Positions 1 through 62,930 of a stretch of 64,000 nucleotides of DNA are shown here, piece by piece. Below the pieces are notes generated by a model. That model saw nothing but the letters and a program-made list of their open reading frames with translations. It did no database searches and was not told where the DNA came from. The DNA is taken from contig CM055109.1 in assembly GCA_029204225.1 (NCBI GenBank), forward strand, positions 1,314,673 through 1,378,672, written 5' to 3'. This stretch comes from Diphasiastrum complanatum (Eukaryota; Streptophyta; Lycopodiopsida; Lycopodiales; Lycopodiaceae). A program made the position numbers and the translations under genes. The stretch's first letter is position 1. Every line of letters starts with the position of its first letter.

Positions 1-120
1 GGTTCATTTCTTATCTCGCCCAGTTCGTCAAGGAACTATGTGAGCCAAATGATTTCATTGGCCATCTTTGTTGCTTCAACGTACTCTGCTTCATAGGATG
101 ACTAAGCCACAATGGTCTGC
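1..120 (-). pseudogene. Ty1/copia RNase H fragment at the left edge
   Basis: On the minus strand the bases read SSYEAEYVEATKMANEIIW, which matches the copia RNase H segment normally written STAEAEYxAxxxAxxExxW. The frame has an in-frame stop just before it and the match ends near base 118, where an unrelated tandem repeat begins. It runs off the window edge, so only the 3' part of the domain is seen. It is a truncated relic, not a working gene. Confidence 0.7.
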
Positions 121-127
121 TGTCGTC

Positions 128-334
128 CATCAGAAGGGTACCATGTTGCAAGCACTCATCAAAACCCTTGTACAGTTTGGGAAAAACTTCCCTATGCTCA
201 ATGACAAATCTCTCTATGTCAAACTGAAAATTGAAATAGGACAAAAAATGGGCCTGTCTGTCGCCAACCCCAGCATCAACAAGAAAAGAACTAAGAGCTC
301 TATCATAGATCGAACTAGTAGACGGGGAGGCAAT
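128..334 (-). pseudogene. Truncated N-terminal copy of the tandem-array gene
   Basis: The minus strand encodes SSIYDRALSSFLVDAGVGD and continues through a segment nearly identical to residues 5-70 of the full copy at 454-1455. The initiating Met of the full copy is changed here, and the reading frame stops being homologous near base 128, where copia RNase H sequence joins. It is the 5' stub of a third tandem unit. Confidence 0.7.
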
Positions 335-453
335 ATCGATATGAGGCGCCGATTAGCAAGGGGACCTAAATGGTGTAATCATACACGCGTGATGGCGATA
401 TACACTGTACATGATTCCGGATATCAGAACTATGCACCAGGGGAGCAGTGTGA

Positions 454-1455
454 CTATGGAAACGTCTGTTGGGCGCGTGGTAGCGATATAGTATGTTTTG
501 ATTTTCGAGCAGGTCGGTTTGCTGGACTCAATATGTGAAACGGAATTCCAAAAACGACTCTCATATATATATAGTCCAAAAACTCCTCCTCACTCGGCAT
601 ATTAGCCTCATATGCCCTGCTCTCAGATAGCATCCTTTGAAGGGCATCTGTGCCACTTGCCCATTCTACCTGGTCCTCATAGTCGATGCCATCTATGAGG
701 TCATCATCATCAAAGTCAATATAATCATTAAATTCAGAAATCATCCTTGACATAAGAGATAATATCTCATCTTCTCTGAGATCCATTACGTCTCTGATGT
801 CGCTAACGGACAAGAATGCAATATCGTCCATATGGTACACAGGGAGGTCCATCAGGGTTCTGCTCTAGTCAATCTCGCACACGGTAGATAAGAGAAAGAT
901 AGACAGAGAATGAGCCTTGGCAGGATCATATTGTTGTGCTTGCCTAGCCTCCTCTACATCTCCTAAAACCTCATCAGTAATGAAAACCTCTGAAGCAACA
1001 CGAGTAGTAGGGGCAGACAAACCAATCATAGACGACCCAGAAGATTCTGCCTCGTTAGGGATAAGAGTAGATAAGAAAAACACAAAGGCCATACCCTCTT
1101 GAACAAAGCGACATACTCGATTGTATTCCTCACAAGGTATGACACGTTTAAACATATCGATAAGTTTGGTAAACTTACCATCATGCCTTTGCTTGGCACT
1201 AGGCTGAGCATGAGTCAAATCTATGAAATGCACAAATCTTAGGTTGTCCATTAGAAGGGTACCATGTTGCAAGCACTCATAAAAATCCTTGTACAGTTTG
1301 GGAAAAACTTCCCTGTGCTCAATGACAAATCTCTCTATGTCAAACTGAAAATCGAAATAGAACAAAAAATGGGCCTGTCTGTCGCCAACCCCAGCATCAA
1401 CAAGAAAAGAACTAAGAGCTCTATCATAGATTGAACTAGTAGACAAGGAGGCCAT
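454..1455 (-). pseudogene. Unrecognised acidic protein, about 334 codons with one internal stop
   Basis: From ATG at 1455 the minus strand reads 196 codons (start MASLSTSSIYDRALSSF) to a TAG at 867-865, then continues in the same frame for 137 more codons to the stop at 456-454. The internal TAG lies where CAG would give Gln, a single C-to-T change. The second half is strongly acidic (FDDDDLIDGIDYEDQ). I do not recognise the family and see no signal peptide, membrane segment or known catalytic motif. Tandem copies on both sides preserve the N-terminal and C-terminal parts, which supports real coding on this strand. The overlapping plus-strand frames have no such support. It could be a transposon-borne or duplicated host gene. 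Confidence 0.5.
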
Positions 1456-1574
1456 ATCGATATGAGGCGCCGATTAGCAAGGGGACCTAAACAGTGTAAT
1501 CATGGGCACGTGATGGCGATATACACTGTACACGATTCCGGATATCGGAACTACGCACCAAGGGAGTAGTGTGA

Positions 1575-1690
1575 CTATGGAAACGTCTGTTGGACGCGTG
1601 GTAGCGATATAGTATTTTTGTTTTTTGAGCAGGTCGGTTTGCTGGACTCAATATGCGAAACCGAATTCCGAAAACAACACTCATATATAT
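1575..1690 (-). pseudogene. C-terminal tail of a further tandem-array gene copy
   Basis: The minus strand encodes VVFGIRFRILSPANRPA, matching VVFGIPFHILSPANRPA at the C terminus of the 454-1455 copy. Small indels shift the last codons out of frame. Homology ends near 1697, where the CACGTG-box array starts. Confidence 0.7.
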
Positions 1691-1748
1691 AGTCTAATTC
1701 AGAGGATCTAAACTGTACATGTGTTTCAAAAACGTGCGGTCAAAATTG

Positions 1749-2020
1749 CCACACGTGTGAAAACGACGGCCAAATCATTGTATGACACGTGTATACTCCA
1801 GATCTTGACACGTGTCCTCGCACGTGCATGCCAACTATACAATCGTACGGACCAGTCGTTCCATGACACGTGTGTGGCCTAGATCGTGACATGTGTCCTC
1901 GCACGTGCATGTCAGCCGTATGATTGTACAGACCGGTGATGTCCTGACACATGACAGGTCCATGTGATGACATGTGTCACCACACATGCGGGGATTAGAC
2001 ATGTCACATCACACGTGTGA
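1749..2020. promoter_or_regulatory. Tandem CACGTG (G-box/ABRE-like) array
   Basis: Seven perfect CACGTG hexamers lie at 1752, 1786, 1809, 1821, 1867, 1902 and 2012, most inside GACACGTGTC-like palindromes; decayed ones (CATGTG, CACATG) lie between. The array is built on an 81-bp tandem unit (1782-1862 and 1863-1943) plus partial units on each side. CACGTG is the plant bZIP/bHLH core site. The array ends 23 bases before a TATA box facing the histone-like gene. Confidence 0.65.
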
Positions 2021-2042
2021 CAATGATGGGACAATCTGCAGG

Positions 2043-2049
2043 TATAAAA
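2043..2049 (+). promoter_or_regulatory. TATA box for the histone-like gene
   Basis: TATAAAA, 256 bases before the ATG at 2299 and directly after the CACGTG array. An initiation about 30 bases on would give a leader of about 225 bases, which contains an upstream ATG at 2208. Confidence 0.5.
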
Positions 2050-2298
2050 GGATGTTTTCGGCTCATATTTTCGTTTCGAATTTCTTCGTTCCCTAGCGCT
2101 CCTCAGATTTCTTCGTTCACTTGCGCTCCTCGCTATCCGCATATCGCTACCACGCGCCCAGACAGTTAGATATCAAGACAACTTTCCCCTCTGCACGTCG
2201 TAGCGATATGCCATCTCCCATATCGCTATCACGCGCCACCCTATCCGTTATCCACTGTTCTTTCTGTTTGGCGTATCATAACGATACCTCGGCTTCAA

Positions 2299-2701
2299 AT
2301 GGCCCATACCAAGCAAACAACACGTCTTACCACATTTGTCTCGCCTCCTCGTCCTCCTGTACAAAGGGCAGTGGGCACTGGTAGGAGAGTAGGTCGGCCT
2401 AGAAGACCATGGCTAAGGGATATCATGAGACTACAAAGGACAACGAATCTCCTGATTCCCCGTGCTCCGTTCTACAGGTCTGTGAAATTAGTAACAAGAT
2501 CACTCTCACATGATGTTTGCTAGAAAATTCTATGAGGACTCTACGCTTTGCACAATGCACGCGAAGAGAGTTACCCTCATGCCTCAAGACATGCATCTTG
2601 TCATGAGGCTGAGGAGTATATACGATCAGGTTTTTAAGAGTGGCTTCACCTCTAGGCCACCACCTACAGAGAAGAAGGAGAAAGCAGACCAAGCCCACTA
2701 G
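2299..2701 (+). pseudogene. Small histone H3-fold gene, CENH3-like, broken
   Basis: The frame from 2299 starts MAHTKQTTR, an H3 tail start (canonical ARTKQTAR), passes a short basic tail, and reaches LRDIMRLQRTTNLLIP and PFYRSVKLVTRSLS, matching the H3 alpha-N and alpha-1 region. TNLLIP is the form seen in plant CENH3; ordinary H3 has TELLIR. This frame stops at 2521-2523. A second frame (2510-2701) carries EDSTLCTMHAKRVTLMP, matching the end of alpha-2, loop 2 and alpha-3, followed by a basic C-terminal extension ending at TAG. About 20-25 residues of loop 1 and alpha-2 are missing at the frame change, so it cannot fold as a normal H3. K4 is kept, K9 is Leu, and no K27 region exists. It is most likely a damaged copy of a divergent or centromeric H3. 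Confidence 0.65.
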
Positions 2702-2871
2702 GCCTGCCAGGCAAAGGGTAGTACTCAGCGAATTACCATCCACCCCTCATATCTCTCGTCCTTTGGTTGGACCATCACACCAATCTGCAATGCGTTCTTC
2801 TCCTCCCACCACCAAACTATTCAAGTAGTTCCTCTTCCATTCCCTCCATTCCATCCCACAATAACGAGAAT

Positions 2872-3695
2872 ATGACCTCTACTGTAGATAAAATAATATT
2901 GGATCTAGATAAGAGTTTAATAGGTGATTTTTATAAGGATCTTTGTGTAAGATTTCCCGTTGATCCGAAAGATTCAATTTTGGATTCTGAGAGGTATATA
3001 GTTTTTGATGAGTATGTTGCCAAAGAGATTGATAAGATATGAGGTCAATTTTTTTTTTGTGTAAGTTCAATTAATTATGTAAATCACATAAATAAAGGCT
3101 TTTGTGATGCCCTGAAGGAGAAGACAGCAGATATATCCGATCCAGTTGTGGAGGCTGGTTTGATGTATTTTGTAAATAGATGTAAATGCGATGATAGTAA
3201 GGACATTGGGGTTGCGCTGTCCTTTTTTGCACACAACCTTCATAGTCCAACTCAGGCAACAAAGTATCATTACCATACAACTTCCGAGACCAAAGTCTTC
3301 ATTATTCCATACTACCAAAAGTAAGTGATTATATAGAATATATTCAAGTAATATTTTTTATAGGTATTGTAATTCCTTCAGTTTAACTAATTATCTCTTG
3401 TTTGCAGTAAGCATTGGAGTATGCATATAGTCTCCCTTAGGGAAGATTCAGTAATCTCATCTGTTAAGTTATTTTCAATTTGGTTTTTGATAAGTCAATT
3501 GACTCGGTTATTTTGGATTTGCAGTATAAATGTCGAGCATTTACAATGAATGAGATATATGAGTTTTGTCAACAAATGTTGGTGAACTTATTATCTCATG
3601 TAACACCCAGTCCAGCTGCAAAAATGGGAGGCCAATCAAGTTCACAACTGACACTAGTGCAGAGTGGAGATAATCTATATTACTTTGAGCTATAA
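2872..3695 (+). pseudogene. Ulp1-type (C48) cysteine protease fragment with an intron
   Basis: The frame from ATG 2872 reads to a TGA at 3040-3042 and continues in the same frame to 3320, ending KVFIIPYYQ before a GTAAGT donor at 3321. Joining to the acceptor after 3417 gives NKHWSMHIVSLREDS in frame. The pattern of a hydrophobic strand, IPYY, then HW followed by a strand is that of the catalytic His region of Ulp1/SENP peptidases, which cut SUMO-like tags and are also carried by some plant transposons. A further frameshift near 3440-3480 leads to a last segment (VFDKSIDS to VNLLSHV, 3480-3600). No Asp-Cys-Gly active-site Cys segment is visible. It is therefore a decayed partial gene. It ends tail to tail with the minus-strand gene at 3874-4640. 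Confidence 0.5.
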
Positions 3696-3873
3696 ATAAT
3701 AAATTAAATAGAGATATACATTTTTGATGTAATGCCCTGTGAATAATTATGGGCATATAGAAAGATAGAGACAATGGGATAAAAGCATCCATTGTTAAAT
3801 ACAGGACGCACATGTACATTCTCAGAAAATGAGAAATATATTGATATTTATGAGAGCTTTTACAAATCTTGTA

Positions 3874-4640
3874 TCATGATTGCTCTATTATCTGAACAAT
3901 TCTGCCCAAATCTTTGCATTTGGTTTTCTCTTCATGTCTTTTACATATCTGCACAAATTTACATTAATCAAATTACAGTTAGTGATCTGAATATTGACAG
4001 AAAAGATAATGAATACAAATTAATATACAAATTCATAGATTTCACATAAAGCTGAAATATTCGAAAATATCTTGCTGTAAAAGTGTCAGTTCCGTTCTAA
4101 TGTAGAATAAAGTCCAGTCCTGCTCAACCTCAATAGTAGTAAGTAAATCCCCATTTGTCATGATATCAATGCATATACAATCAGTGTGTCCAATGTTGTC
4201 TAGATCTTGATCTAATGGGGCCCAAGTACCATTGTGTTCTTTCCATCTCTGATAATGAAATACCATACTAAGCATTTGTTTTTCTATACTATTAAATGAT
4301 ATGAATGTATGTTTGATTCTACAAGCAATATTTGCAATGGATTTTATATCCCAACCTTTGTCTATGAATTTGAATAAAAAATCATTTGATAGATTTTTGC
4401 AAACAAACAATGTGGGAGTTCGATGCACCTCCGTGTTTGAAACAGAGCTGACAAACAATGACATTGGAACAAACCAGCTTAAGTGCACAGTTCTTAATCC
4501 AGTACTAATTTTGAGTGACTTTTGTACATCATTATATAGCTTGGAACGAAAACATTTTATTATATTGACGTTGACTACAATCCACCACACGTTATCTTGA
4601 AAATTAGGTAGAGGTATATACCTGAGGATGAAGCATTTCT
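3874..4640 (-). pseudogene. Unrecognised intron-containing family, copy 1
   Basis: The minus-strand exon from about 4630 to 4046 reads IPLPNFQDNVWW, then HLSWFVPMSLFVSS, HRTPTLFVCKNLS, KGWDIKS, and WAPLDQDLDNIG, and ends DWTLFYIRTELTLLQQD. A second exon (3948-3874, acceptor TTTGTGCAG) reads ICKRHEEKTKCKDLG and ends TGA. The same blocks, in the same order and with the same 75-base last exon, occur at 61972-62930. In this copy about four bases are missing before the donor, so the splice is out of phase. I do not recognise the family. The last blocks resemble a small ubiquitin-like fold by pattern only, which is weak inference. Confidence 0.55.
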
Positions 4641-4989
4641 ACCTCTTGTAGCAACATTGAAATAACTCTTGATAGAGTAAGTTAGGTCGAAATGGCCATG
4701 ACCCATGTTTCATAGACATTAGGCAGAGTCGATAAAAGAGTCATTACAGCAATTGGATCGAACTGCATCTGAATCTTCAGGTTATTTTTGAAAAAACACC
4801 ATTTTGAACCTTCACCAAGTTGAAAATATTCTCTGTCATTCCATAAGAACCTTCACTGAGCCTAGCAATTATTTATTACAATAAAATTTACCTATAGACA
4901 AGTGGGCGAAGGTTAGTTTTGCTCAAATTTCCACATATCGCCCTCCTGCTGGCTTTCCAATCAACCCTTAACAATCCGATTTAGGTATT

Positions 4990-5235
4990 GCTAAGATGTC
5001 CTAGACATCATTGGCTGTCTGATTAGATCGAATATGACTAATTTGAGAATCTTTGATATTTAGTGTGATTAAGCCAAATGCCTTGCCATCTCGTTGCCTC
5101 CATTTGGTGATGCTTGCCGCATCTCCCTCTAGTTTGACTTCAGTGCCATCAACTGTCCCATAGTTCCTTGGCTAGTAAAATGACTCTCATCTTGAACTTT
5201 TCAAAGATGGTAATTCTCTCCATCGAGCTTGTCAA
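4990..5235 (-). pseudogene. Ty1/copia gag fragment
   Basis: On the minus strand, in three frames joined by small indels, the bases read DKLDGENYH, then KFKMRVILLAKELWD, then KAFGLITLNIKDSQISHI and QTANDV. These are typical of copia gag N-terminal domains (KLDGxNYxxWKxxM, then xKAxxxIxxxI). At least two stops replace Trp or other codons. No LTR was found next to it. Confidence 0.6.
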
Positions 5236-6716
5236 TTGGACCTCACAAGCCATCAAGATGAGAAAGATTGGATGAGGTGCACCACTTTTCCTTTAAAGAC
5301 CAAAAATACCTAAGCTAATTTATCCTTGAGATATGTACAAGATGTGTGGTGGTTGAGGTCTAACCTCATGATAACACTTACCATGCAAATTAAGTAGCTA
5401 GTTTTTATCCACTTTCACAAAAGATTTTGAAACCTTTTTGCTTAAACTCTCATGAATTTTCTTTTGAATGCTATGAAAGAGGAAAATTTGCTGCAAGATA
5501 CAAATGCAAGGCAATGGGCAAAAGTTGTTATGTAATATTGGGCATGGAGTTTGGTCAACTGAGGAGCTATTGGAAAGCTTACAACACATCTTTCACAAAA
5601 CCAGTAAGAAACTAGAAACTTTGTACAGAATCATGATGTTTGCTTTGAAAACAGATTCATCGAAAGAGGATTGGGAAACTATCAAAATTTAACCAAGTCG
5701 AAGAAGAAATAAGCTTTAATCTACTGGCATTGGATTACCCTACCTTGTGAAAACATAACTCTTAACAAGCAAAAGAATGTGAAAGAATTAGTATGGAAAG
5801 GTGTAGTAAGCCAGAACCGTATATGCCAATTGATAGCTTAGTTCAAATTATGAAAAATTGAATCTACATGGGACTGTTATCATTTGCCTATATGTACTAG
5901 ACATGGTGCCAGTACTTGCCTGTTCCCAATTTTAGTATATTGATTATCTAACACCTCTCCCATCAGGGAAGCTGCCCATAAACTGGCAGCTGAGCTGGTG
6001 GAAAGGTCCGTTGAAATCAGCAATTAAAGCAAAGAACTTGTTTGGCATATGAGGATTTTATGGGAATTCACATCAATGATTCAAGCGTAAGACTGAAAGC
6101 CATTCTTACCTAAAGCCAACAGTTTATTCTCAACAACATACTTTCTTAAATTGACTGACATACCATCGCGACTAACCAAGCATTTCAGAATTACTCCATC
6201 AGAAGATATGCCTAGAAAGAAGATATGTTCACAAAGAACTTAAAAGGAAACTAGCCTTGTAGAGAAACATGCATCATCAAATTAACAAATATGTATTCGA
6301 ATTTGAAAGCACCTGCTAATTTCAAAATGCTTGACTGGATTGAAACAATTGTGTTGACTTTAAAGCAAGTATAATCCGAAAAGCATGTTTTTGACATCAA
6401 GTGAAGAGTTGATGCTCTCAAGACTCAGACTCAGCCCCATTCACTCTTAAATAGAGCAAGAAACACCTCTTAGGAGTATGTAACAATCATGAAGTAATTA
6501 ATTCCTGTTCAATGTGAGAAAAAAGTCAAGATAGGATTCTATTAGAGTATGAGACTTGACACTGGAAGACTTGATTGAGCATTTTTCTATCAACAGAGTC
6601 TGCTCAACCGATAATGAAAAGAAGAATCTATTTGGGGTCTATGTACAAATTGCATTGTATATGAAGATCCTGCTTACTACAGATCCAAAGTCGTCGTCAA
6701 GCCGTATATTTCAAAT
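5236..6716. other. Intergenic, no recognised gene
   Basis: Two overlapping short plus-strand frames occur at 5427-5692 (KFAARYKCKAMGKSC; TEELLESLQHIFHK). They look like coding sequence broken by a frameshift, but I cannot assign a family. The rest, up to the stop codon of the cysteine protease at 6717, is AT-rich and shows nothing I can support. Confidence 0.4.
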
Positions 6717-9512
<2,796 letters not shown>

Positions 9513-9989
9513 CGCAGCTTCAGATGTGACCTGTCTATACCGCTCGAAACTAAAGTATGCACGCCTAACTCTGCAAGCAACGCGCTTTTAATTCAGATTC
9601 TTCTTCTTTCTCCCACGCGCAGTATCTGTGTAACGTTGGTAGATCAGAAACATCGCATTGACTAAAAGTTTGTCAAAATATTATGTCGGCAAGGACTAAT
9701 TTTAGGTTTATTTTCTTGTTTCAGTCGAAGTAGAAAAGCGAGCGGCTCACAAAAGGATATAACATTTCAAATACTAAAAAACTGACACAAGGAAACTGTA
9801 CGTGGTTGAGGCGAAGCACTAATAATTTATAAATAATGCGAAATGCTCAGATAAGACGACAGATCGCGAGACTAAAAAAGGCCAAAAGGACATAAGATTA
9901 AAAGTGTACGTATCTGAAGGGTAGCATTGACAACACACTGTCATGTAGCATGTTCATTAAAGAGATTAGTCATGCAAACTTGCCAACCT
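9513..9989. other. Upstream flank of the cysteine protease gene
   Basis: It carries the presumed 5' leader and promoter of the minus-strand protease gene. I see no clear TATA box in minus orientation close to the start codon and no other coding sequence. Confidence 0.35.
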
Positions 9990-35297: not shown

Positions 35298-35555
35298 CAT
35301 CATTATGGCCAAATTGATTAGATTATGCCTTTACACTGACGCCTCTACCCACAAAGCAAAAGCAATGATAAGGAAAACTGAAAATTAAGCTCCTCATAAT
35401 TGAATCAAAAAAATTTGCTGGTTCTAAAATCACTTTTTAACGTAAAAGACTTTTGAATTTGAATGACTAAAATCAAATTTCAAATGAATAGTACATAGTT
35501 GCCAGAAACACATTTCTGGGCAAAAACGTTCCCAAAAACGCTGGGAAGGGGGGGG

Positions 35556-37995
35556 GGGAAATAGAATACATTACAATTTTTTGCCTCTCCTCGCTGCCAG
35601 AAATGAATGGTGTGAAATTTTGATGTGCTTGGTTCGAGCATGGAAGATTGGATTGTTGGCCAGTTGCGGTGGCCAATTGTTGAGTTGCTTGATTGTCACA
35701 ATAAATACATGGAATGTCTTCAGCCTTGATCACTTGAAGCTCCTCCAAAAGTCTTCTTAGCAATAGGATCTCCTTAGTTGTTGTCATAGCCTTGTACTCA
35801 TATTCAGTTGATGAAAGAGAGATGGTATCTTGCCTTTTGAAAAGCCAAGATATAACTTCTCCACATAAGAATGTAGCAAAAGCACTTGTGAATCTTCTAT
35901 CCACTTTGTCACCTAAAAAATCTGAGTCTGAGTATGCTCTCAAACAAATATAAGTCCCTTGATACACAATGCCAAAGTTTCTTGTAGCCGAGATGTACCT
36001 TAACACTCTTTTGGCACTTTTCCAATGCCATATTAGTGGAATTTGCATGTATTGACTCAATTTGCCACTGACAAAAGCTAAGATCTGGTCTAGAGATGGC
36101 TAAATAGATCAAAGAGCCAATAAGTTTTCTATAGTGATGTTCTCAAAGGATGCTTCCTCACTTTCCTTAGAAAATTTTGCACTTAGCTCCATGGGAGTTT
36201 CAAGTCCTTTACAATCTTTCATGCCAAACTTTTCTAAGATGGATCTAGCATACTTAAATTGACATATGGAAGTAAAATCATTAATTCTAGTGACTTCTAT
36301 TCCAAGTATATCTTTTAGAAGTCCTAGATCTACCATCTTAAATTCACTAGGAAGGGAAATTTTCACATCTCTAATGCCATCAAGATCATTTCCTGTGATA
36401 ATTATATCATCAGCATATAAAACCAAAAAATTGATCTTTCCATCATTACATTTGTAGTACAATGATGGTTCATAAGAACTTACAACAAATCCAATGGAAA
36501 TAAGATAATAATGCAACCTAGAGTACCATGCTCTAGGTGCTCGCTTGAGTCCATAAAGACTCTTCTTCAAAAAGCATACTTTGTCTACTTCTCCATCTTT
36601 GATGAAGCCCTCGGGTTGGCACATGTAAATTTCCTCTTCCAAGAATCCATTCAAGAAAGCATTTGTCACATCAAGCTGAAAGAGCTCCCCTCTGAAGTAG
36701 CAAGACATATGATCAATCCAATGGTTACAAGCTTTGGAACAGGAGCAAAGGTTTCATCATAATCTATGCCTTTGACTTGCAAAAATCCTTTTGCTACAAG
36801 TCTAGCCTTATACTTATGAATGGAAATATATCAAGAAAGAATAAGAGGTGTGAAGTTGAGAATCTTCCCTTTGCTTCCCTTTCTCACTATGAGTGACCCT
36901 TGATGGCTCAGCCCTCACCCTTGTTGATCTTCTTGGGTCCTTTGGAGCTTGAGAAGATCCATTTGGTCTTCAACTCCTTGAAGCTCCTCCTCAGCCATAG
37001 CATGATCATTGATAAGATAAGAGTTGTTGGAAAGCTCCTTCTCTTGACATTGAGAGATTCATCAAAAAGTACATCTCTACTTACAGCAACTTTCTTGGTA
37101 ATAGGATCAAATATCCTATAAGCTTTACTATTTTCACTATAACCAGCAAAGTTGACTTTGAATGAGGTAGCATCTTCCTTCTTCCTTACTTCTAAAGGAA
37201 TGTGTACATAACAAGTACATCCAAAAATTTTCAAATCACTAAGATTTGGCTTTTTGCCATACAATGCTTGAAAAGGTGCGAGTCCTTGAATGGCACTATT
37301 AGTCATTCTATTACATAGAAAGTTTGCACATAAAATAGCTTCTCCTCAAAAAGAAATAGGAAGATATGCATCTAATTTGAATGCTTTAGCACAGTTATAT
37401 AGTGTTCTATTTTTCCTCTCGGCCACTCCATTTTGTTGAGGAGTGTATGTGCATCTAAACTCTCTCCTAATGCCATTAGTTTCACAAAACTCTTTCATCC
37501 TATTGGAGATGTACTCTCCTCCATTATCACATCTTAATACTTTCAAACTAGCATTAAGTTGCTTTTCCACAAGAGTTTTGAACTTTACAAACGACTCACA
37601 TACATCACTTTTCTTAGACAAGAGGTAAAGCCAAGAGTATCTTGATTTATCATCAACAAATGTGACATACACAAGAGCTCCACCATTAGATTCATGTGAA
37701 AATGAATGCACATCCGAGTGTATTAGGTCAAGAGGAGAGTTAGATCTTGTCAAAGATCTCTTGAATGGTTGCTTATGAGATTTGGAGAATCCACAAGCTT
37801 CACAAAGCTTTCCACATTTGGATATGGTTTTGGGTAGTCCAATTGCAATCTCCTCACCATGGTCTCCATAGCTTTGAAGTGAATTTCGGGCTGAGTTTGT
37901 GTTAGCCATTTATGAGCTAACACTGGCTGAATCCTCGCATCAAGCAAGCACATCCCAGAGTCATAAATGGGTACGCAATGAGATAGTTTCAAAAT
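35556..37995 (-). pseudogene. Ty1/copia pol remnant: GAG-pre-integrase, integrase, reverse transcriptase, RNase H
   Basis: Minus-strand order: a decayed GAG-pre-integrase end (37992-37850), zinc-finger and integrase core with LIHSDVH, LRCDNGGEY and YTPQQNGVAERKNR (37840-37346), a stop TGA at 37348-37346 where Trp is expected (SFWGEA), and the integrase C-terminal part with LKIFGCTCYVH (37306-36908). After a deletion of the RT N terminus come LDVTNAFLNGFLEEEIYM, SLYGLKRAPRAWY and LYADDIIITG (36708-36109). RNase H with SSTEYEYKA and CDNQAT follows (36060-35580). The catalytic Asp residues of integrase and the RT YADD are intact, but the stop, the deletion and frameshifts kill it. No gag is adjacent and no LTR was found. 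Confidence 0.85.
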
Positions 37996-40900
37996 TTGAT
38001 AAAGGGTTAGACATCCTTATAAAGGGTTGGCAACCACAATCCACCTTAAAGTATCTTTCTTGTAGTCAAATATGCTACAAAGTGTTCACGTCCTACTCTA
38101 TCATGAGTTAATTGTACTATTTGTTCAATCTCATAGGGAAGGTCACATCTGAGTTGGTGGACCTGATCAATATCTATGTGATAAAATTGTTTAGCTAATG
38201 CTATATAGTAATCAAATTAACCCTAATGAGATCACCTTGAGTTGCTTCTTAGTCTAACCTTATAAAAACCTAAAACATTTAAATGAAGGTATTGTGCTTG
38301 GATGACCATTGGCAAAGAGCAAGGCCTAAAGCTCTTATGGTGCAAACTTTTATATCTTTTCCGGCTTTTCTTTTGGCATTTCTTTTTGTTTTCTTAATGA
38401 TTCTTATGTTTTGTTGTCAATTTCACATAATGACCAAGTGCAAAATTAAATTTGCATTTTTTTCTTGCTATTTCTTATAGTTCTTATTTTTGATTTTTTT
38501 GCTAGTATATAACATGTAATGTTGATAGCCAATGATGGCCTACCACATGCCACATACAGATTTTGTTGAAATGTGCATGTGCCTTATGACAACTTTCCAT
38601 TTGTCATCCACATGCAGATTTCATTGCTCCATGTTAGATTTTTGTTGGTTGAGAGTTGTGGTAGGAAGGCTCGCAAATGTTTTTGCTTCTAAATATATTT
38701 TTTGGAGGTCCCCCCAAAAAAAAAAATTAAACATCCAATATTACGACAAGTGAAAAACGTACAAATCTTAAGCTATGCTAAAATGTAAATTTCAAACAAT
38801 TGTTTGTTTGTACTTCAAAAAAAAAATTACAAGCTCTGCCAGAGAGTCCAAGTCATAGTCTACACTTGGACACAAGAAAACCATCACATCAGTGAGGGAG
38901 CTCCACTTGTTTGTGACTATTTTCTCAAAGAGGTTGAACACAAATAGTGATCACAAACATGAGAGCTATAGCCACTCCAAGCCTACATGTGTAGTAATTT
39001 TGTAGATGAATAGATTAGTTTATAAATGACAAGAATTTTTTTGCAGCACTATAGGTCCATTATCCATTCATACTAAAGTATAGCATCTCTCATATAACGT
39101 GTTCTAACAAAAATATTGTATTAAGAAAGTTATAGCAACTTCGAGCTTACATTTGAACGTACAAAAAAGCTCATAGATTGATATGTAGCTAATATCAATC
39201 AAGTGGAAATTGAAAGTTGAAAATATTTGACTTGTAGTACTTGAAAACTAGCACAAACTACATTCAAAATGATACTATCTAGCATTATATCACCACAACT
39301 TGTTATCCAAGGCAACATTCACTAATCCGAGGTTGGCAACACCACTCTAATAAAGAGCATCTTGTTGAGCCACCTGAAACACAAGATCATACATGTCAAT
39401 CACTCACTTAGTGGATGATGAGCTAAAAATAAACTTTTGGAGAATGAAACCAAACAAGCAAATAGTCCATGCCAACTTTTTGGAGCACGAGAATGATGGA
39501 GTGTTAGTTATCAAGAAATAGAGGATTAAAAAATGGTACAATATTCTCGAGGGAAGGACTTTAGTTGCGTGAGGACTGAAAACAGGCTCCGAAGACTAGT
39601 GACTATAGCATTCAACTCTGATATAACTCGCTTGAGTGCATTGTTTTCAGCACTACTCTGTTGCACATAATGAAGAAATTGTTAATTTGCACATTGCAAT
39701 TGTTGATTCGCGAACTGTAATTGCTGATTAAGACAAGATATGCTATGCATTCTGATATCTCGTAGCCTTTGACAATATCCAAGTAAACAGCTATTTCTTT
39801 CTCATACAAATTTGAGAAAATGAGTTACAGACTTGAAATTTGGACACAAATTGGTAGTTGGATCTCTAGGATAAATTGATCCATCCACCCACTTTATCTT
39901 ATGATTATTTATTTTCAGTTCTCTAACAATTTCAGCAGCATTCTCTACAGCTTTCGAATTTTTCTTACTAATTGGAGTACATTGCATAGGAAGTGCAACA
40001 TGCAAATGGAACATTGCCATTGTTGATAGCTACAATACGTAAATGCTTCAAACTACAATAAGTTAAACTGAATAGATCTAGCGTACCTTACTTTTGTAAT
40101 GTCTATGTCATGCTAAAAAATCATCTCGCCTCATATTTCACTGTAAGCATACAAAGATTTCAAACGTGCTCATTATACTCCCGCTTCAGTTTTTGCATTG
40201 AGCACACCAAGATTTACCACAATACTCTTGAAGCTCTAGCCCCGAATTTTGAAACGAGCATGCAAAGAAGTTATTACATTTCATGCTTAACTAACTAATG
40301 TCTAAAGTTAACATAGCAGTTAAACATCGGGCAAGGCCAGAAACTTGGAAAATGGCGACCAAAAGTTACCGGTTCGCACTCTCTCTCTTCGTAGTTTTTC
40401 TCTAAAGTGAAATTTCTTAAAGGGCCCATTTTGAGCCCATATTTCCCCTAATGAGAGCTCTTCCACTGGTTGTCAGGTCCGAACGAATATCTAGGCCTCA
40501 GGATGTAGGTAGGCGAGGGTTGAGGGTAAGGTATGGTGGTATGGGACACCATAGCTTATCGGAGATCCGAGCTTGCTTCATGGTGGTCTATAGCTCCAGT
40601 GCTCAGGGGAGAGATGGCAGTACCTCTATGGTTGGAGCGTTCATGCTTTAGCAATGACCGGATCGATGATGGAAATTCTAACAATATCGCTTCCACTTCC
40701 AACAACAACAGGCAAACGAATGGAAGGGCAAGAAACAAGCGTCCGACAACATTCTCATTTTGTCCTTTTCCGATAGAAGGTTATGCATTTTCATCTAAGC
40801 CTTTCCAAAAGAAAGGTGACTGTGTTTTGAAAATTCACACTATGTTGTATTAAACTTCAAACTAAGGAAAAGTTGCACTGATGAAATTTCCTTTGCTTTA

Positions 40901-41609: not shown

Positions 41610-41616
41610 TATAAAA
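41610..41616 (+). promoter_or_regulatory. TATA box of the FAD oxidoreductase gene
   Basis: TATAAAA, 137 bases before the ATG at 41747. Initiation about 30 bases downstream would fall inside the GA/poly-G tract and therefore after the ATG at 41624, which argues for the 41747 start. Confidence 0.5.
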
Positions 41617-41633
41617 TTGCGCGATGCACTGCG

Positions 41634-41671
41634 AGAGAGAGAGAGAGAGAGAAGGGGGGGGGGGGGGGGGG
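41634..41671 (+). repeat. (GA)n followed by an 18-G run
   Basis: GA dinucleotides to about 41652, then 18 consecutive G at 41654-41671. It lies in the predicted 5' leader of the oxidoreductase gene. Read as protein it gives RERERE followed by Gly, an artefact of the repeat. Confidence 0.9.
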
Positions 41672-41746
41672 TTAAGGGTATGGGGCGGTTTAGGGTTTAG
41701 GTTTCGGGTTGTGCTGAAGAAGGGGCTCACCCCAGCGAAATGGGCG

Positions 41747-43033
41747 ATGGCGATAAGAGCCTCTCTTCTACCTCTCCACCTTCTGCCCTCGCCATTTCTC
41801 TCGATCCTTCCCTGCCGCTCGCGATCCAGGAACGTCTCTGCCCATTCAGCCATGGGGCATCGGGGGGGTTCATCCGCTGAAGCAGCAGAGGCTAAGCACG
41901 TAGTTGTGTGCGGAGCAGGGGTGATCGGATCCTGCACGGCCTATTTTCTGGCTCAGAAAGGGGTGAAGGTGACAGTGGTGGAAAAGTGTGGTGTGGCCTC
42001 TGCTGCATCAGGCAAGGCCGGGGGCTTTCTCGCCCTTGACTGGTGCGATGGCAGCTTGCTGAAGGATCTGGCCAGGGCAAGCTTTGATCTACATGAAACC
42101 CTAGCCGAGGAGCTGAACGGCAGAGAGAGGTATGGCTACAGAAGGTTGGATGCGCTCAGCCTGGTGTTGGAGGAGACGACAGGCGGTGGTGTGGCAAGCC
42201 ATAGCCCAAAACTACCTGCGTGGATCGACGGCTGTGTGAAAAGGGCTGCCCCTATCGGGACCCAAAAAACCACTGCGCAAGTGCACCCGTTTCTGTTCAC
42301 GCAGGCGGTGCTGTCGGACGCGATGGACAAGCATGGCGTCAGGCTTTTGATGGGGAATGTGGGAGGGGTGGAATTGGAACCCGCCGAGGGCGAGGGTTAC
42401 AGGGTGACAGGAGTGATGGTGGATGGCAATTTTGTGGGTGCCGATGCGGTGGTGCTGGCTATGGGCCCCTGGACAGGGACCAACAGGCTTGTGTCAGATC
42501 TCACAACTATATCAGGCATCAAAGCCCATAGTATAGTTTTGTACCCACAGAACCCTAATGTGATCTCCCCCCATGCTCTTTTTCTGCAATACAAGACCCA
42601 AGAGGGCAAACAATTGGACCCTGAGGTGTACCCACGCCCATCAGGCGAGGTCTATGTGTGTGGAATGTCAGAAGAAGTCGAGATTCCTGTAGACTCAGAT
42701 CGGGTTAAGCCAAGGAAAGAAGCAATTGTGATGCTGCGGCGAATTGCCAGCACGGTTTCGAGCGAATTGGTGAATGCTGAGCTGAGAATAGAGCAGGCTT
42801 GCTTCTTGCCGTGCTCTGTTGATGGTCGGCCTTTAATTGGGGGGATTCCGAATGTTGCGGGGGCATATGTGGGCACTGGCCATAGCTGCTGGGGGATCTT
42901 GAATGGGCCTGCTACTGGGTCATCTCTAGCAGAGCTCATAGTTGATGGAGTGGCAAAGACTGTGGATCTAAGCCCTTTTGATCCTGCAAGATTTGGGCAA
43001 ACTTCTCATCGACAAAAACAAGTAGCGCTTTGA
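41747..43033 (+). CDS. FAD-dependent oxidoreductase, DAO family, single exon
   Basis: An intronless frame of 428 residues. Residues 1-49 are Ser/Arg/Leu-rich without acidic residues until position 44 (LPCRSRSRNVSAHSA), suggesting an organelle transit peptide. A Rossmann dinucleotide-binding segment follows at 51-80: HVVVCGAGVIGSCTAYFLAQ and the acidic end VTVVEK. Next are the DAO-type SAASGKAGGFLALDW and a C-terminal GTGHSCWGILNGPATG, where family members close the FAD site. The family oxidises amines or amino acids with FAD; the substrate here cannot be told. The frame stays open upstream to 41624, but those codons come from the GA/poly-G repeat. The gene is GC-richer than its surroundings. 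It resembles plant and fungal TDA3-like oxidoreductases. Confidence 0.85.
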   Translation: MAIRASLLPLHLLPSPFLSILPCRSRSRNVSAHSAMGHRGGSSAEAAEAKHVVVCGAGVIGSCTAYFLAQKGVKVTVVEKCGVASAASGKAGGFLALDWCDGSLLKDLARASFDLHETLAEELNGRERYGYRRLDALSLVLEETTGGGVASHSPKLPAWIDGCVKRAAPIGTQKTTAQVHPFLFTQAVLSDAMDKHGVRLLMGNVGGVELEPAEGEGYRVTGVMVDGNFVGADAVVLAMGPWTGTNRLVSDLTTISGIKAHSIVLYPQNPNVISPHALFLQYKTQEGKQLDPEVYPRPSGEVYVCGMSEEVEIPVDSDRVKPRKEAIVMLRRIASTVSSELVNAELRIEQACFLPCSVDGRPLIGGIPNVAGAYVGTGHSCWGILNGPATGSSLAELIVDGVAKTVDLSPFDPARFGQTSHRQKQVAL

Positions 43034-52295: not shown

Positions 52296-53138
52296 CTATG
52301 ACTCATCAAGCTTAGAAAGCTTTTTACCTGGTTCAATAGGAGTATTTACTGGTTTGCAATCCTGCAACCTAAACATGTGCAACAACTCTTTGACATACTT
52401 CACCTGTGTTAAACCCACTTCGTGTCCTTTTTGCCACACCTCTACTCCAAGGCAATAATGCATCAGGCTGAGATCTGTCATCTTGAATTGTTCCATGAGG
52501 TCTTTCTTGATCATGTCTATCATCTCTTGATTATTTCCCATAATAATCAAGTCATCAACGTAAAGAGCAATCAAAGCAACCATACCATCAAAGCATAAGA
52601 CATATAGATTTGGATCAGAATGCATTCTCACCATCCCCTTTGAACGAAAGTAGGCATCAATCCTGCTATACCAAGCATGTGGTGTCTGTTTAAGACCATA
52701 AAGCGCTTTCTTCAAGCGACATACTTTATTTTCCTGTCCCTTCGCTACAAAGCCTTCAGGTTGATCCATGAACACTTCTTCTTCTAACTCACCATTTAGA
52801 AAAGCAGATTTCACATCCATCTGATGCAAAGGCCAACCAAAATGTGAAGCTAAAGTAACAAGTAGACATATAGTATTCCACTTACAAACCGGTGCAAAGG
52901 TCTCCTCATAGTCGATGCCTTTACTTTGTGCATACCCTTTGATCACCAATCTTGCCGTGTGCTTTGCTATACTTCCATCTGCATGGTACTTAGTCCGGTA
53001 TATCGATTTGCAACCAATGGATTTCTTGCCAACTGATGATTCTACTAAGTCCCATGTGCTATGTTTAGCAATTGACTCCATCTCCTCTCCCATGGCCTTG
53101 ACCCAAATGTCATCATCCTTCGCTTCACCATAAGTCAA
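52296..53138 (-). pseudogene. Copia element: reverse transcriptase
   Basis: An open stretch of 280 codons with ARLVIKGYAQSKGIDYEETF, LHQMDVKSAFLNGELEEEVF, ALYGLKQTPHAWYSR and LYVDDLIIMG, where YVDD is the catalytic pair. It ends at a TAG after KLDES. Upstream it joins the integrase only through a frame break near 53140-53310. The domain is the best preserved part of the element. Confidence 0.9.
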
Positions 53139-53310
53139 ATGTTCTTTGCTTTGAATAATGCTAGATGAGAGAGCATAATTTGCTTCACACCTTTCAGGTT
53201 GTGTCTTCTCTCTTGTTGATCTTCATAGCTCTCCCTGGCTAGATGATCCTGGAAAGTCATCCATGTCGCGACTCTCCAACAATCTCTCAAACCACTTAGG
53301 GAGCTTCCTA

Positions 53311-54543
53311 TCAGGTGATCGGCTCCCACGATACATCCTTCTCCTTGCGTTTGTCACATGCAACTTCAATCCTTCTTGCACCAAAAGGTTTGTCCCTACC
53401 TCTCCAACCTATCTCTTGAGGTTGAGTAGTAGTATCTTGAGATGTATCCTCTTTTTCATCACTTGGAAGGTCAATGAATGGATCATCATCAGGTGGTATC
53501 CTCACTATACTATCTTTCTCACTGGATGTCTCTATCTTCTCAGCATCCTCATCTTCATACATCTTGGATTCATCAAAGATAACATCACGGCTTATATGGA
53601 CTTTGTTTTCCACTGGATCAAAACATCTATAGCCCTTCACACGATCATCATATCCTAGGAATATACACTTGATAGCTTTTACATCAAGTTTACGTCTCTC
53701 TTCCTTAGGAATGTGTACAAAGGCCTTACATCCAAAGATTCGCAAGTGGTTCACCTTTGTCTTCTTCTTCGTGAATGCTTCCTCAGGTGTTATCTTTGGT
53801 ATGGCAATGGTAGGACTTCTATTTTGAAGATAGACTGCCGTACTGCATGCTTCTGACCAAAAATCTTTTAGTAGTTTCATCTCAGCTAGCATAGATCTGG
53901 CACTTTCCACAATCGTATGATTCTTGCGCTCAGCTACACCATTGAGAGCATGAGTATGAGCTTGTGTAAATTGTCTTTTAATCCCACATTGATCACAATG
54001 ATCATTGAAGTCATTAGACTTGTACTCACCTCCACTATTTGATCTGATCTTCCTACCTGTCTGATTTTCGACCAATGCTTTGAAGCTCTTGAAGTTGTCA
54101 AATGTCTGATTTCTTCTTCAAGAAGTAGATCCACGTCACATATCATCAATAAAGGTCATGAAATAGAATGCTTTACCTAAGGACATGGTCCTCATAGGCC
54201 CGCATAAATCTGTGTGGATTAAATCCAGGATGTTCTTTGCTCTTGCAACACCCCCTTTATTGAACTTCTCTCGATGCTGCTTCCCATATACACAAGATTC
54301 GCACATCGATTTCAAGTGATCTTCTATGGTAGGCAATCTTGTTACCATCTCCAATTTTCTCATAAAACTGAGGCTTCCCAAGTTCAAGTGACCAAGCCTC
54401 TTATGCCACAACTCAGTTTGCGATGAAATGGACGATACAAGTCCATGTTGCCCCTTGATTGTAGCATTCAACCTGTACAATTTTGTATTGGGCTCTCTTA
54501 CTCCATCCGCAATAACTTTGAACTTTTGGTTCACATCCTTCAC
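53311..54543 (-). pseudogene. Copia element: GAG-pre-integrase and integrase
   Basis: The part 54543-54136 has LWHKRLGHLNLGSLSFM, a zinc-binding CESCVYGK and LIHTDLCGPM (first catalytic Asp). Near 54140-54117 bases are lost and the frame changes twice (WIYFLKKKSD in one frame, then back). The part 54075-53311 has IRSNSGGEY, where the normal RSDNGGEY has lost the second catalytic Asp, then NGVAERKN, LRIFGCKAFVHIPKEE and FLGYD. Integrase is therefore inactive by mutation as well as by frameshift. Confidence 0.88.
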
Positions 54544-54546
54544 AAA

Positions 54547-55692
54547 TCAACGATCATGGGCGAATTCTACTTTCAACTTTTTATCAGTAATGACTCCAAC
54601 AAAAAGTAGATTTTTCTTCAAACCTGGTACGTAAAGTACCTCCCTGATCATCTTGCTTTTGCCATCAGGTAGTTGGATTGAAACGCTGCCTATCCCCTTG
54701 ATCTTGCACACCTCACCATTTGCTTGTGAAACGAACGTTCCATTATCCAACACTTTCATGCTACTGAACCAATTCTTGTTACCTGTCATGTGTCTTGTGG
54801 CTCTCGAGTCAATATACCACGCTTGATCATCTTGATTAGATGACAATGCAGATATGAAGATGCTAGAGTCTTCAATCTCACCCTCATCGACAAGGTTACC
54901 TGCTTGTTTTGGTTTCCCCTTGACTTGTTCCACCAGGAATTTGCGACATTCACTCTTCCAATGGCCCTTTTTACCACAATGAAAGCACTTGCCTTTCTTC
55001 TTGGTCTTACTGGAAGATCCCTCGTCCTCTTGAGACTTGGCAAATTGCTGTTTAGACTTCTTCTTGCCCTTGCTCTTGCCTTGTTTTTGGCTTGTCGCAA
55101 CTGCCTGATCGTCAATATTTTGACGTCTAGCTTTCACCATTTCTCGTCGTTGCTCTTCCTACATCAAGATTCTTGTGAGCTCGTCAAAGGTTGGCAATCT
55201 TTCTCTTGATGCTATTCCGCTCACAAACATCTGATAGGGTTCTGCAATGCCGCACAATGCATTGTGCACCAGCTCCACATCACGTATGCGCTCAACAATA
55301 GAATGCAGTTCATCCCTCATTGTCTTGATTCTGGTCATGTACGTCTGAATGTGCTCTCCTTGCTCCATGCGGGCACTATTCAACTTTGACTTCAGAAACA
55401 TGATTCTTGACAGATTTGACGTCTTGAACTGCTCCTTTAGCACATCCCATGCATGTCTGGGTGTAACAACATCACAAATGTGGGTAATGATGTGATCCTT
55501 CACTGACAAGTTAATGAAGGTCAAAGCTTTCCTCATCTTTTTTTCGAACACTTTGATATCCGCTTCATTTGGCGGCCTTCTCTCATCACCTGTGATGACT
55601 TCCCAAACGTCTTTCTCCATCAATATGTTTTTCATTTTGAATTTCCACACTGCATAGTTGGAAATCCCGTCCAATTTGCTACTTTCACTCAA
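54547..55692 (-). pseudogene. Copia element: gag, zinc knuckle and protease
   Basis: Gag from ATG 55692 (KLDGISNYAVWKFKMKNIL) runs to a TAG at 55161-55159 after LTRILM, where Gln is expected, and continues in frame with RRQN and KCFHCGKKGHWKSEC, the CCHC knuckle, at about 54995-54953. The protease site reads YIDSRATRHMTG; the catalytic DSG is changed to DSR by one G-to-A change. The frame stops at TGA 54549-54547 after FAHDR and goes on in the same frame into the GAG-pre-integrase part. Confidence 0.88.
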
Positions 55693-56598
55693 ATGGACTC
55701 TCCCATGTTTGCCATCGCAAAACTGCTTGAAACTTCTGCCGTAGGCTAAAAACAGTATCTCGAGGCCAACAGTGATGTCAGAAGTTGAAAATAATGACTT
55801 GTACTTTTTTCCTTACCAGGCCACTCACCGCTTTTCCACCAATTTGAAAGCCAAATCGGTGTCGCCTTCCAAAATGCGCTCAGTCGTCAACTCCCAGCTT
55901 CGTGCCCATTGAAATGGTGAAATCACTTCTGGCGTACTCCGAACACTTTCTCCGTTGCAATCACTCTGTTTTGCTGTACCGTACTTGTAGGTACAGTCCG
56001 GGTGCCCTTTGTTTGGAGGTTATAGTCTTTCGTTTGCGTCAAAACGGGCAAAGGACACAAAAATGGGGATTTTCCTTGTTTTTGAACTGTTTCTTCCTTT
56101 TGAAGAAATCCCACCCTTCAATTCGAATTTAACCCATCAGGCCTGGAGTTTTACAGCTTCTAAAAAGGTTCAGAATGGAGAGAAAGCCGCTTTCTTCAAA
56201 CCCTAGGCCAGGGTTTTTCTCAGAAAACTATACTTGGCTTCCTATTCACAGTCTTCTGACAAGCTTATCCTCTTCCTCTGAGGTCGCCCTACTGTTGGAA
56301 AGCTGATGCTTCAATCCGTTCGTCAAACGGTATCCGATTGAATGCACACTGACTGCAAACACCAAATAGCCTATTTTAAAATTTCAAAATTCCGTTTGCT
56401 GAGGTTCTAATTCAGCCGACAACCCTTATCTCTAAATCCTCACACAATCTCAAGCTCACCAAGCTTCTGTGTGCTAAACTCTCTGCACCAGTGCTTCTCC
56501 TTCCGCCTACAACCCGTCGTAAACCCCGAACTCTCAGAAGACAATTCTCCCAATGCTCTCTTCAACGACGATGCTGTATTGTGTACACTCCCTGTACG

Positions 56599-61778: not shown

Positions 61779-61971
61779 ATATTCATTTGTAATAGAGGTA
61801 CATTAAAAAAAAAGATACAATCTTACATGTAAACGACCCGTTTATGGGATTTTTATTGATATCAATATAGATTCTTACAATCAGGTTGTGTCCATAGTGT
61901 AATACTGGAATGCAATTTTCTATATTGATAAAAAGACATGATGATTGACATGTATTTGCTGATAGTGAATC

Positions 61972-62930
61972 TCAGTGTTCTTCCATAAGTTGGATTGTTT
62001 CGCCAATATCTCTGCATTTGATCTCAAGCTCATGTCTTTTATGTACCTGCAAACTAATACAAAGTGAGTTACAATAAGTATAGAGATTGTATGAGAAAAT
62101 TTTTATTAAAACTATTCACAAAGAATCGAGTGTTTATAGTTACTTATGAGTTTAACATTGAAAATGAATCTGAAGTCTGAAAGTACATCGTCATGTAGGA
62201 GCAATAGTTCCCACCTGATGTAATTTAGACTCCAATTTTCTTCCACCTCAACACATCTAAAAAATGCATCACTGTATATAATTTCAATATTTTTTTGTTT
62301 TGAATATCCACTGGCTTCCAAGTCTTGATCGAGTGGCACCCATTTACCTTTTTTTTTTCTTTTTTTCCATCTTGCATAATGGAAGCATAAGCTCAACATT
62401 TGGGTTTCAATTTGATAACAAAAGCACATGGAAGACATTTTAATTCTACATTCTATTTCTCCATCTGATCTGTTGTCCCAGCCTTCATCCATAAGTTCAG
62501 ATAATAAACTAATAAATTTCTACATACAAACATCGTTGGGGTTTTGTGTATATTGACACTTGAAAAGAAATCCACAAATATATTCAAGGAAATAAACCAA
62601 CTCAATCTGACTGTTTTTTATCTTGTGCTTATCTTTAATGAATTTTTTACATAATTATATAGCTTGCAATGAAATGATTCTGAAACTGCAACATCTGGAG
62701 CAATTCATTCATTACTTTCAAAACTAGGTAATGGAATTGGGACTATTTGTCCAAAATATCCTTTTGTATCAGGAATGTACATTGATTGATAAAAATAGTT
62801 CCCACTATCAACTAGATCTTTTGCAGTTCTACCTCGATATTACAGCTGTTCAATACCAAGGTGCATAAAATCTAACACATCTGCTAGAGATCCACTGGGC
62901 TCTCATTCATTTTTGTTGGATGAATATAAA
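61972..62930 (-). pseudogene. Unrecognised intron-containing family, copy 2
   Basis: Minus-strand exon 62930-62157 follows a good acceptor (TTTTTTTCTTGTAG) and reads DVLDFMHLGIEQL, YRGRTAKDLVDSGNYFYQSM and IPLPSFESN. Further on come LYNYVKNSLKIST, RLSWFISLNIFV and HKTPTMFVCRNL, then in another frame DEGWDNRS, IETQMLSLCFHY, WVPLDQDLEASG and VEVEENWSLNYIRWELLLL. The donor after 62157 joins in phase to exon 62046-61972 (VHKRHELEIKCRDIGETIQL, stop TGA). A few stops and one frameshift near 62500 break it. Shared blocks with 3874-4640 extend over about 200 residues including the last intron, so copies arose as DNA, not through RNA. Confidence 0.6.

Follow-up and report, generated by a model that had tools for sequence, protein, structure and literature searches.

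A histone H3-like gene fused to a SUMO-protease-like domain in a DNA transposon family of the lycophyte Diphasiastrum complanatum, with one decayed copy examined in detail

Two components of the element described here are known from transposons elsewhere: H3 genes occur in fungal elements, and a C48 domain has been found in CACTA, Ginger1 and Mutator-like ones. Fungal hAT transposons carry H3-like genes, as described for H3L of Pyrenophora tritici-repentis (PMC3538342) and for Pseudocercospora fijiensis and its relatives (PMC6710886); in these accounts the copies are near-identical or have been inactivated by RIP, and H3L belongs to neither H3 nor CenH3 (PMC3538342). C48 domains are reported from CACTA elements (PMC8978399) and, as Ulp1, from Ginger1 (PMC2836005). 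In the plant VANDAL/Kaonashi (KIU) group of Mutator-like elements, Ulp1 is fused to a chromatin factor, the sequence-binding protein VANC (PMC13317346). In Arabidopsis, silent chromatin is lost under the action of the VANC proteins that VANDAL elements encode (PMC10398659, PMC13317346); these proteins also induce hypomethylation of their own family (PMC13317346), and the role of the Ulp1 domain in the KIU versions of VANC is stated as unknown in that account (PMC13317346).

The lycophyte element resembles the fungal hAT/H3 elements in having terminal inverted repeats and an H3-like gene in many copies; like H3L, its H3 was joined to neither H3 nor CenH3 in a free tree, though joint clades with either were not rejected. 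It differs from them in that its H3 is fused to C48/Ulp1 and followed by introns, in that several diverged subfamilies are under purifying selection, and in that the tail in the subfamily studied most closely is near lysine-free save K4; Pfam scans of pieces of its first gene found no hAT family, and there is no 8-bp target-site duplication. As in VANDAL/KIU, a plant DNA transposon joins Ulp1 to a chromatin factor, whose action on chromatin is a prediction here, but the partner is a histone rather than VANC, and in the pieces scanned Pfam found neither a Mutator transposase family nor one for the VANC DNA-binding region. CACTA elements have short terminal inverted repeats and, like Ginger1, can bear C48 as the present element does; in contrast to these two, it has CATTA rather than CACTA ends, no 3-bp duplication, a histone fold and, in the pieces scanned, no Transposase_21 or integrase match. 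Plant CENH3 (HTR12) is characterized by TNLLIP, a tryptophan at the start of alpha-2 and an ARTK tail start without K9. The transposon histones share TNLLIP, the K9-less ARTK-type tail and, in part of the family, the tryptophan, whereas the many mobile copies, the C48 fusion and the H3-length loop 1 in the subfamily studied most closely set them apart. Searches of the open-licence PMC literature listed no H3-Ulp1 transposon, and the main text of a 2026 review on gene capture by plant transposons contains the word 'histone' 0 times. The Ulp1 fusion, the K4-only tail and the transposon type, which Pfam scans of gene-1 pieces assigned to no superfamily, appear to be new.

The window, i.e. the whole stretch of DNA that was analysed, comprises 64,000 bp (C18:1314673-1378672) of a genome assembly of 1.74 Gb in 5,176 contigs. 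As judged by alignment, a DNA transposon that ends in short terminal inverted repeats has left a truncated and decayed copy at window 124-4621. Its parts are given below by reference to E20, a full-length sister of 9,017 bp, together with further pieces of the same kind of element.

11-352, minus strand: second piece of element gene 2.
124-571, plus strand: partial duplication of the same element, equivalent to E20 4282-4728 (blastn 84%) and 93% identical to window 1243-1691.
576-2525, plus strand: left part of the decayed copy, equivalent to E20 3614-5563 (blastn 86% identity).
865-1473, minus strand: element gene 2, an ORF aligned with homologous ORFs of L022, L027, L029 and L032.
2043-2049, plus strand: TATA box (TATAAAA) of the histone gene, 256 bp 5' of the ATG.
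2299-2524, plus strand: N-terminal half of the histone gene (tail, alpha-N, alpha-1), with a sub-cut-off Pfam Histone match, PDB H3/CENP-A matches and 74-92% identity to other copies.
2524-2525, plus strand: junction of a frame-breaking 50-bp deletion, through which most of alpha-2 and the end of loop 1 are lost; the 50 bp are present in 6/6 aligned sisters.
2525-2701, plus strand: remaining half of the fold, with the end of alpha-2 and all of alpha-3, running in another frame into the basic linker; identified by Pfam Histone (33.4 bits) and alignment.
2702-3320, plus strand: rest of what is exon 1 in the sisters, covering the linker and the C48/Ulp1 domain's N-terminal part; its homologue is an open exon in L020, L022, L024 and L026.
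3321-3407, plus strand: GT...AG intron ahead of the exon with the catalytic His, its splice sites matched in E20/L020, L024 and L026.
3408-3451, plus strand: start of the Ulp1 His exon (KHWSMHIVSLRE), from the sequence read and alignment to sisters.
3465-4621, plus strand: right part of the copy, equivalent to E20 6936-8105 (blastn 90.5%) and ending short of the right terminus.
4042-4638, minus strand: element gene 4, aligned with L026, L022, L033, L027 and L029.
39757-40020, minus strand: fragment of the 5' end of gene 1, the putative transposase (tblastx).
61929-62944, plus strand: another fragment of gene 4 from an element of this kind, separate from the one at 4042-4638 and about 57 kb away from it (tblastx to E20, E32, E33 and L027).

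The Asp, Gln and Cys motifs of the protease domain lie in E20 within 6563-6935, a region with no equivalent in the window, and the copy stops at E20 position 8105 of 9,017. An aside in the first-pass annotation that the histone might be transposon-captured is borne out by full-length sisters with terminal inverted repeats, and gene 2 at 865-1473 (minus) is one of the 'unknown repeated genes' noted there beside the histone. The same annotation had read an H3-like sequence in two frames with a gap, which agrees with the ORF reading, Pfam and PDB. The N-terminal half of the fold lies at 2299-2523 (plus, frame 1) and reads MAHTKQTTR...TNLLIPRAPFYRSVKLVTRSLSHDV; the C-terminal half lies at 2495-2701 (plus) in another frame and reads ...KFYEDSTLCTMHAKRVTLMPQDMHLVMRLRS..., followed by a basic stretch. 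The MAHTKQTTR, TNLLIP and VTLM blocks and the C-terminal basic stretch are thus present as described. The Pfam Histone score was 21.7 bits for the N-terminal half, under the cut-off of 26.4, and 33.4 bits for the C-terminal half, over it, and both halves match PDB H3/CENP-A chains. The sole lysine of the window tail is K4, and the stop codon (2699-2701) follows a 20-bp deletion at about 2670. TATAAA was found 5' of the ATG in 11/14 distinct sisters of the window's subfamily, ten at -249 to -257 and one at -197 (L027 and L032, in which the ATG was not found by pattern, were left out of the count). Upstream of the TATA box, at window 1775-1950, lies an 81-bp tandem repeat with CACGTGT motifs, which may serve the element in regulation or as an array of binding sites.

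The gap in the window's fold, at about 2524/2525, is frame-breaking and amounts to 50 bp (about 17 codons), so that the gap noted earlier is real, if slightly smaller than its estimated size of 20-25 codons. The 50 bp are retained in all six sisters aligned (L020, L022, L023, L024, L025 and L026), and the further 20-bp linker segment lost from the window at about 2670 is kept by 6/6 of them, in full in five and one base short in L025. Among the seven loci that best match the window, L004, L005 and L008 are broken as well, by other lesions that in two cases fall inside alpha-2; these three keep RWNITALEAL or CWNITALEAL, which is missing from the window. Besides the window, 23 of 26 distinct transposon loci have a stop-free fold that includes loop 1 and alpha-2, a share that the choice of loci overstates, as it does the strength of selection (20 fetched loci were picked for long open frames, L002-L008 were picked as the window's best matches, and L002 and L019 are one and the same place). 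Because the aligned sisters have the 50 bp and the broken sisters carry other lesions, the loss of alpha-2 in the window is, on these alignments, private decay of a single copy and no variant. The CENH3 variant with a conserved alpha-2 loss proposed in the first-pass annotation is not supported, the deletion being private to the window, and the idea of a conserved alpha-2-less form was rejected on the retention of alpha-2 by the aligned sisters. An assembly error behind the gap was likewise rejected, as the sisters are intact and the window copy is decayed in several places.

The complete element was defined from twenty 10-kb regions and four left extensions. Two full-length copies were read, E20 (9,017 bp) and E32 (9,979 bp), and comparison of copies gave sharp shared ends, CATTA[GC]AGGAGTT on the left and AACTCCT[CG]TAATG on the right; the left end of E33 was sought in this comparison and not found. 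A target-site duplication, sought by eye in the flanks of eight end pairs (E20, E19, E32, L025, C4:76.27M, C9:67.13M, C7:63.1M and C2:82.2M), was absent at 8/8, four of these pairs having been matched by strand and 5.5-8.7 kb spacing alone. Genome-wide, left ends of the window's subfamily number 279 when up to 2 mismatches are allowed and its right ends 166 with up to 1, and a wider pattern gave 794 left ends, with 0 for the reversed control in each case; these copy counts include assembly duplicates. Several copies are doubled at equal score between a large and an unplaced contig (e.g. C2:19950529 and C2583), a sign that the assembly may contain uncollapsed haplotypes. The alpha-3 motif HxKRVT(I/L)MP is coded at 2,586 places (1,257 and 1,329 by strand; reversed control 0), a count made by degenerate codon pattern that includes host H3, may include assembly duplicates and had its surroundings read for a minority. 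With the window's N-terminal protein as query, 150/150 scored matches were 74-100% identical (150 scored of 4,780 candidates, the window itself being the 100%). Together with the motif count, host H3 included, this differs from the one or few host genes expected of a CENH3.

Four genes were recognized by tblastx in E20, E32 and E33: gene 1 on the plus strand, gene 2 on the minus, the histone gene on the plus and gene 4 on the minus. Gene 1 is multi-exon, is putatively the transposase and has in-frame stops in E20 and E32; against Pfam, its pieces matched no transposase family and nothing over cut-off. Gene 2 matched no Pfam family up to E = 1 and gene 4 none above cut-off, and a gene-4 profile had 0 PDB matches up to E = 1. 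None of the copies read has its four genes all intact.

The third gene is a multi-exon fusion of an H3 fold and a C48/Ulp1 (SUMO-protease-like) domain. GT-AG spliced models run without a stop to the end of the third exon in E20 (the same copy as L020; C3:54.324-54.333 Mb) and L026 (C4:41.60 Mb), with lengths of 469 and 468 aa in which the last four letters come from the next intron and a later exon is left out; in L024 the frame is broken within the Ulp1 part. The E20 fusion matches PF00125 at 73.2 bits (E 2.8e-20) and PF02902 Peptidase_C48 at 22.4 bits (cut-off 20.7), L022 matches PF00125 at E 1.5e-21, and the C-terminal part of L026 matches PF02902 at 27.4 bits against the same cut-off. In L027, of another subfamily, PF02902 scores 17.3 bits, below 20.7. 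Motifs of the catalytic His-Asp-Gln-Cys type were identified by eye as KHWSMH (HW), IVDA, QQDD/QQED and SCGW. The joining of C48 to the histone was observed by Pfam in the window's subfamily and by tblastx in E32, E33 and L037.

In the loci of subfamily D, pieces of the same genes occur in a different order. Its clearest member is L031, with which L030, L028, L035 and L038 were named as D-type, and its H3 (oriented 3922-5175) has a long proline- and glutamine-rich N-terminal part: MARTKQTARD is followed by about 300 residues rich in Arg-Ser and Gln with a long proline run, then by the fold, and the protein closes with a short RRERN stretch. Over 7.2 kb, L030 and L031 share 97% identity, which suggests young copies or a recent duplication. 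No Ulp1 part was seen in six D loci. In L034, a frame at oriented 4015-5190 joins a gene-1-like N-terminus to a D-type histone fold. L029 carries a second H3-like gene at 1642-2175 (plus), starting MAFMKQTTQID, about 3 kb from the C-type one, which implies that two elements lie close together or nested.

The histone tail was compared at 19 of the 26 distinct transposon loci besides the window, partly picked for open frames, with a start motif in which position 4 could be K, R or N; L028, L029, L030, L033, L034, L035 and L038, in which this motif is absent, were not counted. In 19/19 distinct readable tails lysine is missing from position 9, which is taken by L, I, P or D, and K4 is kept in 18/19, L036 having R. 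Within the window's subfamily, K4 is present in 14/14 and is the sole tail lysine in 12/14 (L003 adds K22 and L026 K29). Further tail lysines occur in the other subfamilies, at K10 and K38 in L027, at K19 in L032 and at 14 more positions in the long N-terminal part of L031. Host H3 has K4, K9, K14, K18, K23, K27, K36 and K37 in 10/10 loci. The Arabidopsis CENH3 tail has an 'ARTK' start without K9; since this combination also occurs in plant CENH3, the K4-only, K9-less tail could be the legacy of a CENH3-like ancestor rather than of anti-silencing selection.

The element ends, the fusion, its tail, the constraint on the fold and the counts of ends and H3 motifs are all sequence observations, and the reading of them that we favour, with about an even chance of being right, is that the fusion is the element's own anti-silencing factor. 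The fusion is predicted to be expressed, to enter nucleosomes and to act as a SUMO protease. Its H3 part would enter nucleosomes with H4 and so bring the protease onto chromatin, where the tail would keep the K4 motif of active chromatin in the absence of K9 and, in the window's subfamily, of nearly all other lysines. Nucleosomes without K9 would receive no H3K9 methylation, and hence none of the ensuing DNA methylation. In Arabidopsis, CMT2 and CMT3 direct non-CG methylation to H3K9-methylated regions (PMC10398659), so a K9-less nucleosome would form a gap in this silencing loop. The same enzyme class as in the KIU versions of VANC, joined to a histone, would provide another route to chromatin. 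More tentatively, and with the odds somewhat against it, the transposon may have evolved its own K4-almost-only histone fused to a SUMO protease, by which its copies are kept free of both H3K9 methylation and SUMO-dependent silencing. If true, this would be a self-encoded chromatin state lasting through several diverged subfamilies and, provided that the element itself accounts for most of the 2,586 H3 motifs, through thousands of copies within a single genome. Hosts silence transposons via histone marks, and an element bringing a K9-less histone and a SUMO protease would represent a counter-move at the level of the nucleosome.

An unlikely alternative, though the best placed of those considered, is that the histone is a passenger, i.e. 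a host H3 or CENH3 gene captured once and copied along without function. There is a precedent in the inactivated hAT/H3 elements of Pseudocercospora fijiensis (PMC6710886), and many copies of the present element are broken, the window's included. Estimates of dN/dS from five copies of the window's subfamily (10 pairs) were 0.51 for the linker and 0.54 for the N-terminal part of Ulp1, values that would suit a passenger, but 0.17 for the fold, with 0.42 for exon 1 overall. The tail gave 0.81 (38 codons, 7 usable pairs), without clear constraint, which is again in line with a passenger and counts against a strongly selected tail. Among the 36 between-locus pairs a ratio was obtained for 8, dS being not computable in 28. 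Five of these pairs, between subfamilies (L027/L032 counted), gave 0.13-0.21 at a dS of 2.3-3.9, near saturation, and those within subfamilies gave 0.11 (L033/L037), 0.29 (L024/L020) and 0.60 (L031/L034). On these ratios the H3 fold is under purifying selection, and the low values within and between subfamilies argue against a functionless passenger. The same is true of the stop-free folds at most loci (partly picked for open frames), the repeated joining of C48 to the histone and the occurrence of H3-like genes in all subfamilies read.

Slightly less likely than a passenger is a role in chromatin or centromere targeting, in which the H3-fold module would be a CENH3 derivative that steers integration or aids chromosome segregation, with Ulp1 freeing SUMO-modified partners. 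CENH3-like residues are present, with LIPxA.F in each subfamily; in addition, alpha-2 begins with a tryptophan in L027, L032 and the subfamily of the window. Loop 1, however, is equal in length to that of H3 in A (the window's subfamily), L027 and D, and longer by 1 in C and by 4 in L032. A tree with H3 and CENH3 proteins, which with its two CENH3 rows and Arabidopsis H3 rows gives a weak basis for parentage, split A, B and C from the rest (85/85) and held H3 together (96/98), with D, CENH3 and H3 in an open fork; all transposon rows fell on one side of a weakly supported branch (61/73), and L027 and L032, labelled B, formed no group. The free tree thus joined the family neither to CENH3, the grouping that the first-pass annotation expected, nor to ordinary H3. 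Constrained clades were not rejected for A+B with CENH3 (p-AU 0.11), A+B+C with CENH3 (0.23) or A+B+C with H3 (0.34), so trees holding the family with CENH3 stay compatible with a centromeric derivation. The distribution of copies points both ways. A local cluster of at least 7 left ends lies within 0.32 Mb at C2:21.37-21.69 Mb, while C1, the sole chromosome counted, has at least 37 left ends spread from 0.5 to 98.6 Mb of its 101.6 Mb among the first 100 of the 794 places, a spread that may speak against centromere targeting.

In a search with Arabidopsis CENH3, 150 of 5,403 candidates were scored and the top 13 were set apart by score; the ten of these that were fetched (L009-L018) are ordinary H3, and the fetched next-ranked, dispersed H3-like loci are the transposon family. 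The host CENH3 gene was not found among these 150, swamped by transposon copies. Histone gene counts in such genomes would be swamped by transposons in the same way.

There is a slight chance that the element is instead an endogenized DNA virus whose histone fusion acts on viral or host chromatin. It has several genes of unplaced origin in about 9-10 kb and is without a target-site duplication, and one gene-1 piece has, among its Pfam matches under the cut-offs, Birna_VP3 (15.4 bits against 22). However, one IMG/VR scan with one gene-1 piece found no viral relative, no viral family exceeded its cut-off in the Pfam scans, and the short inverted repeats at hundreds of dispersed ends are what a transposon would show. 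Finally, the reading as a host paralogue of CENH3 that lost alpha-2 functionally, for which the tail start and the TNLLIP and VTLM motifs would speak, can be virtually dismissed, given that the deletion is private and frame-breaking, lies within a truncated transposon copy and is confronted by sisters with alpha-2 present.

Elsewhere in the window, remains of copia-type LTR retrotransposons were found at 35476-37909 (RVT_2) and at 52299-55812 (RVT_2, zinc knuckle, Pol_BBD and SH3_retrovirus). An exon of a papain-like cysteine protease, with an Inhibitor_I29 propeptide (E 7.4e-20), lies at 8994-9587 (minus), and a 472-aa ORF at 41615-43030 (plus) encodes an FAD-dependent oxidoreductase domain (DAO, E 7.3e-43).
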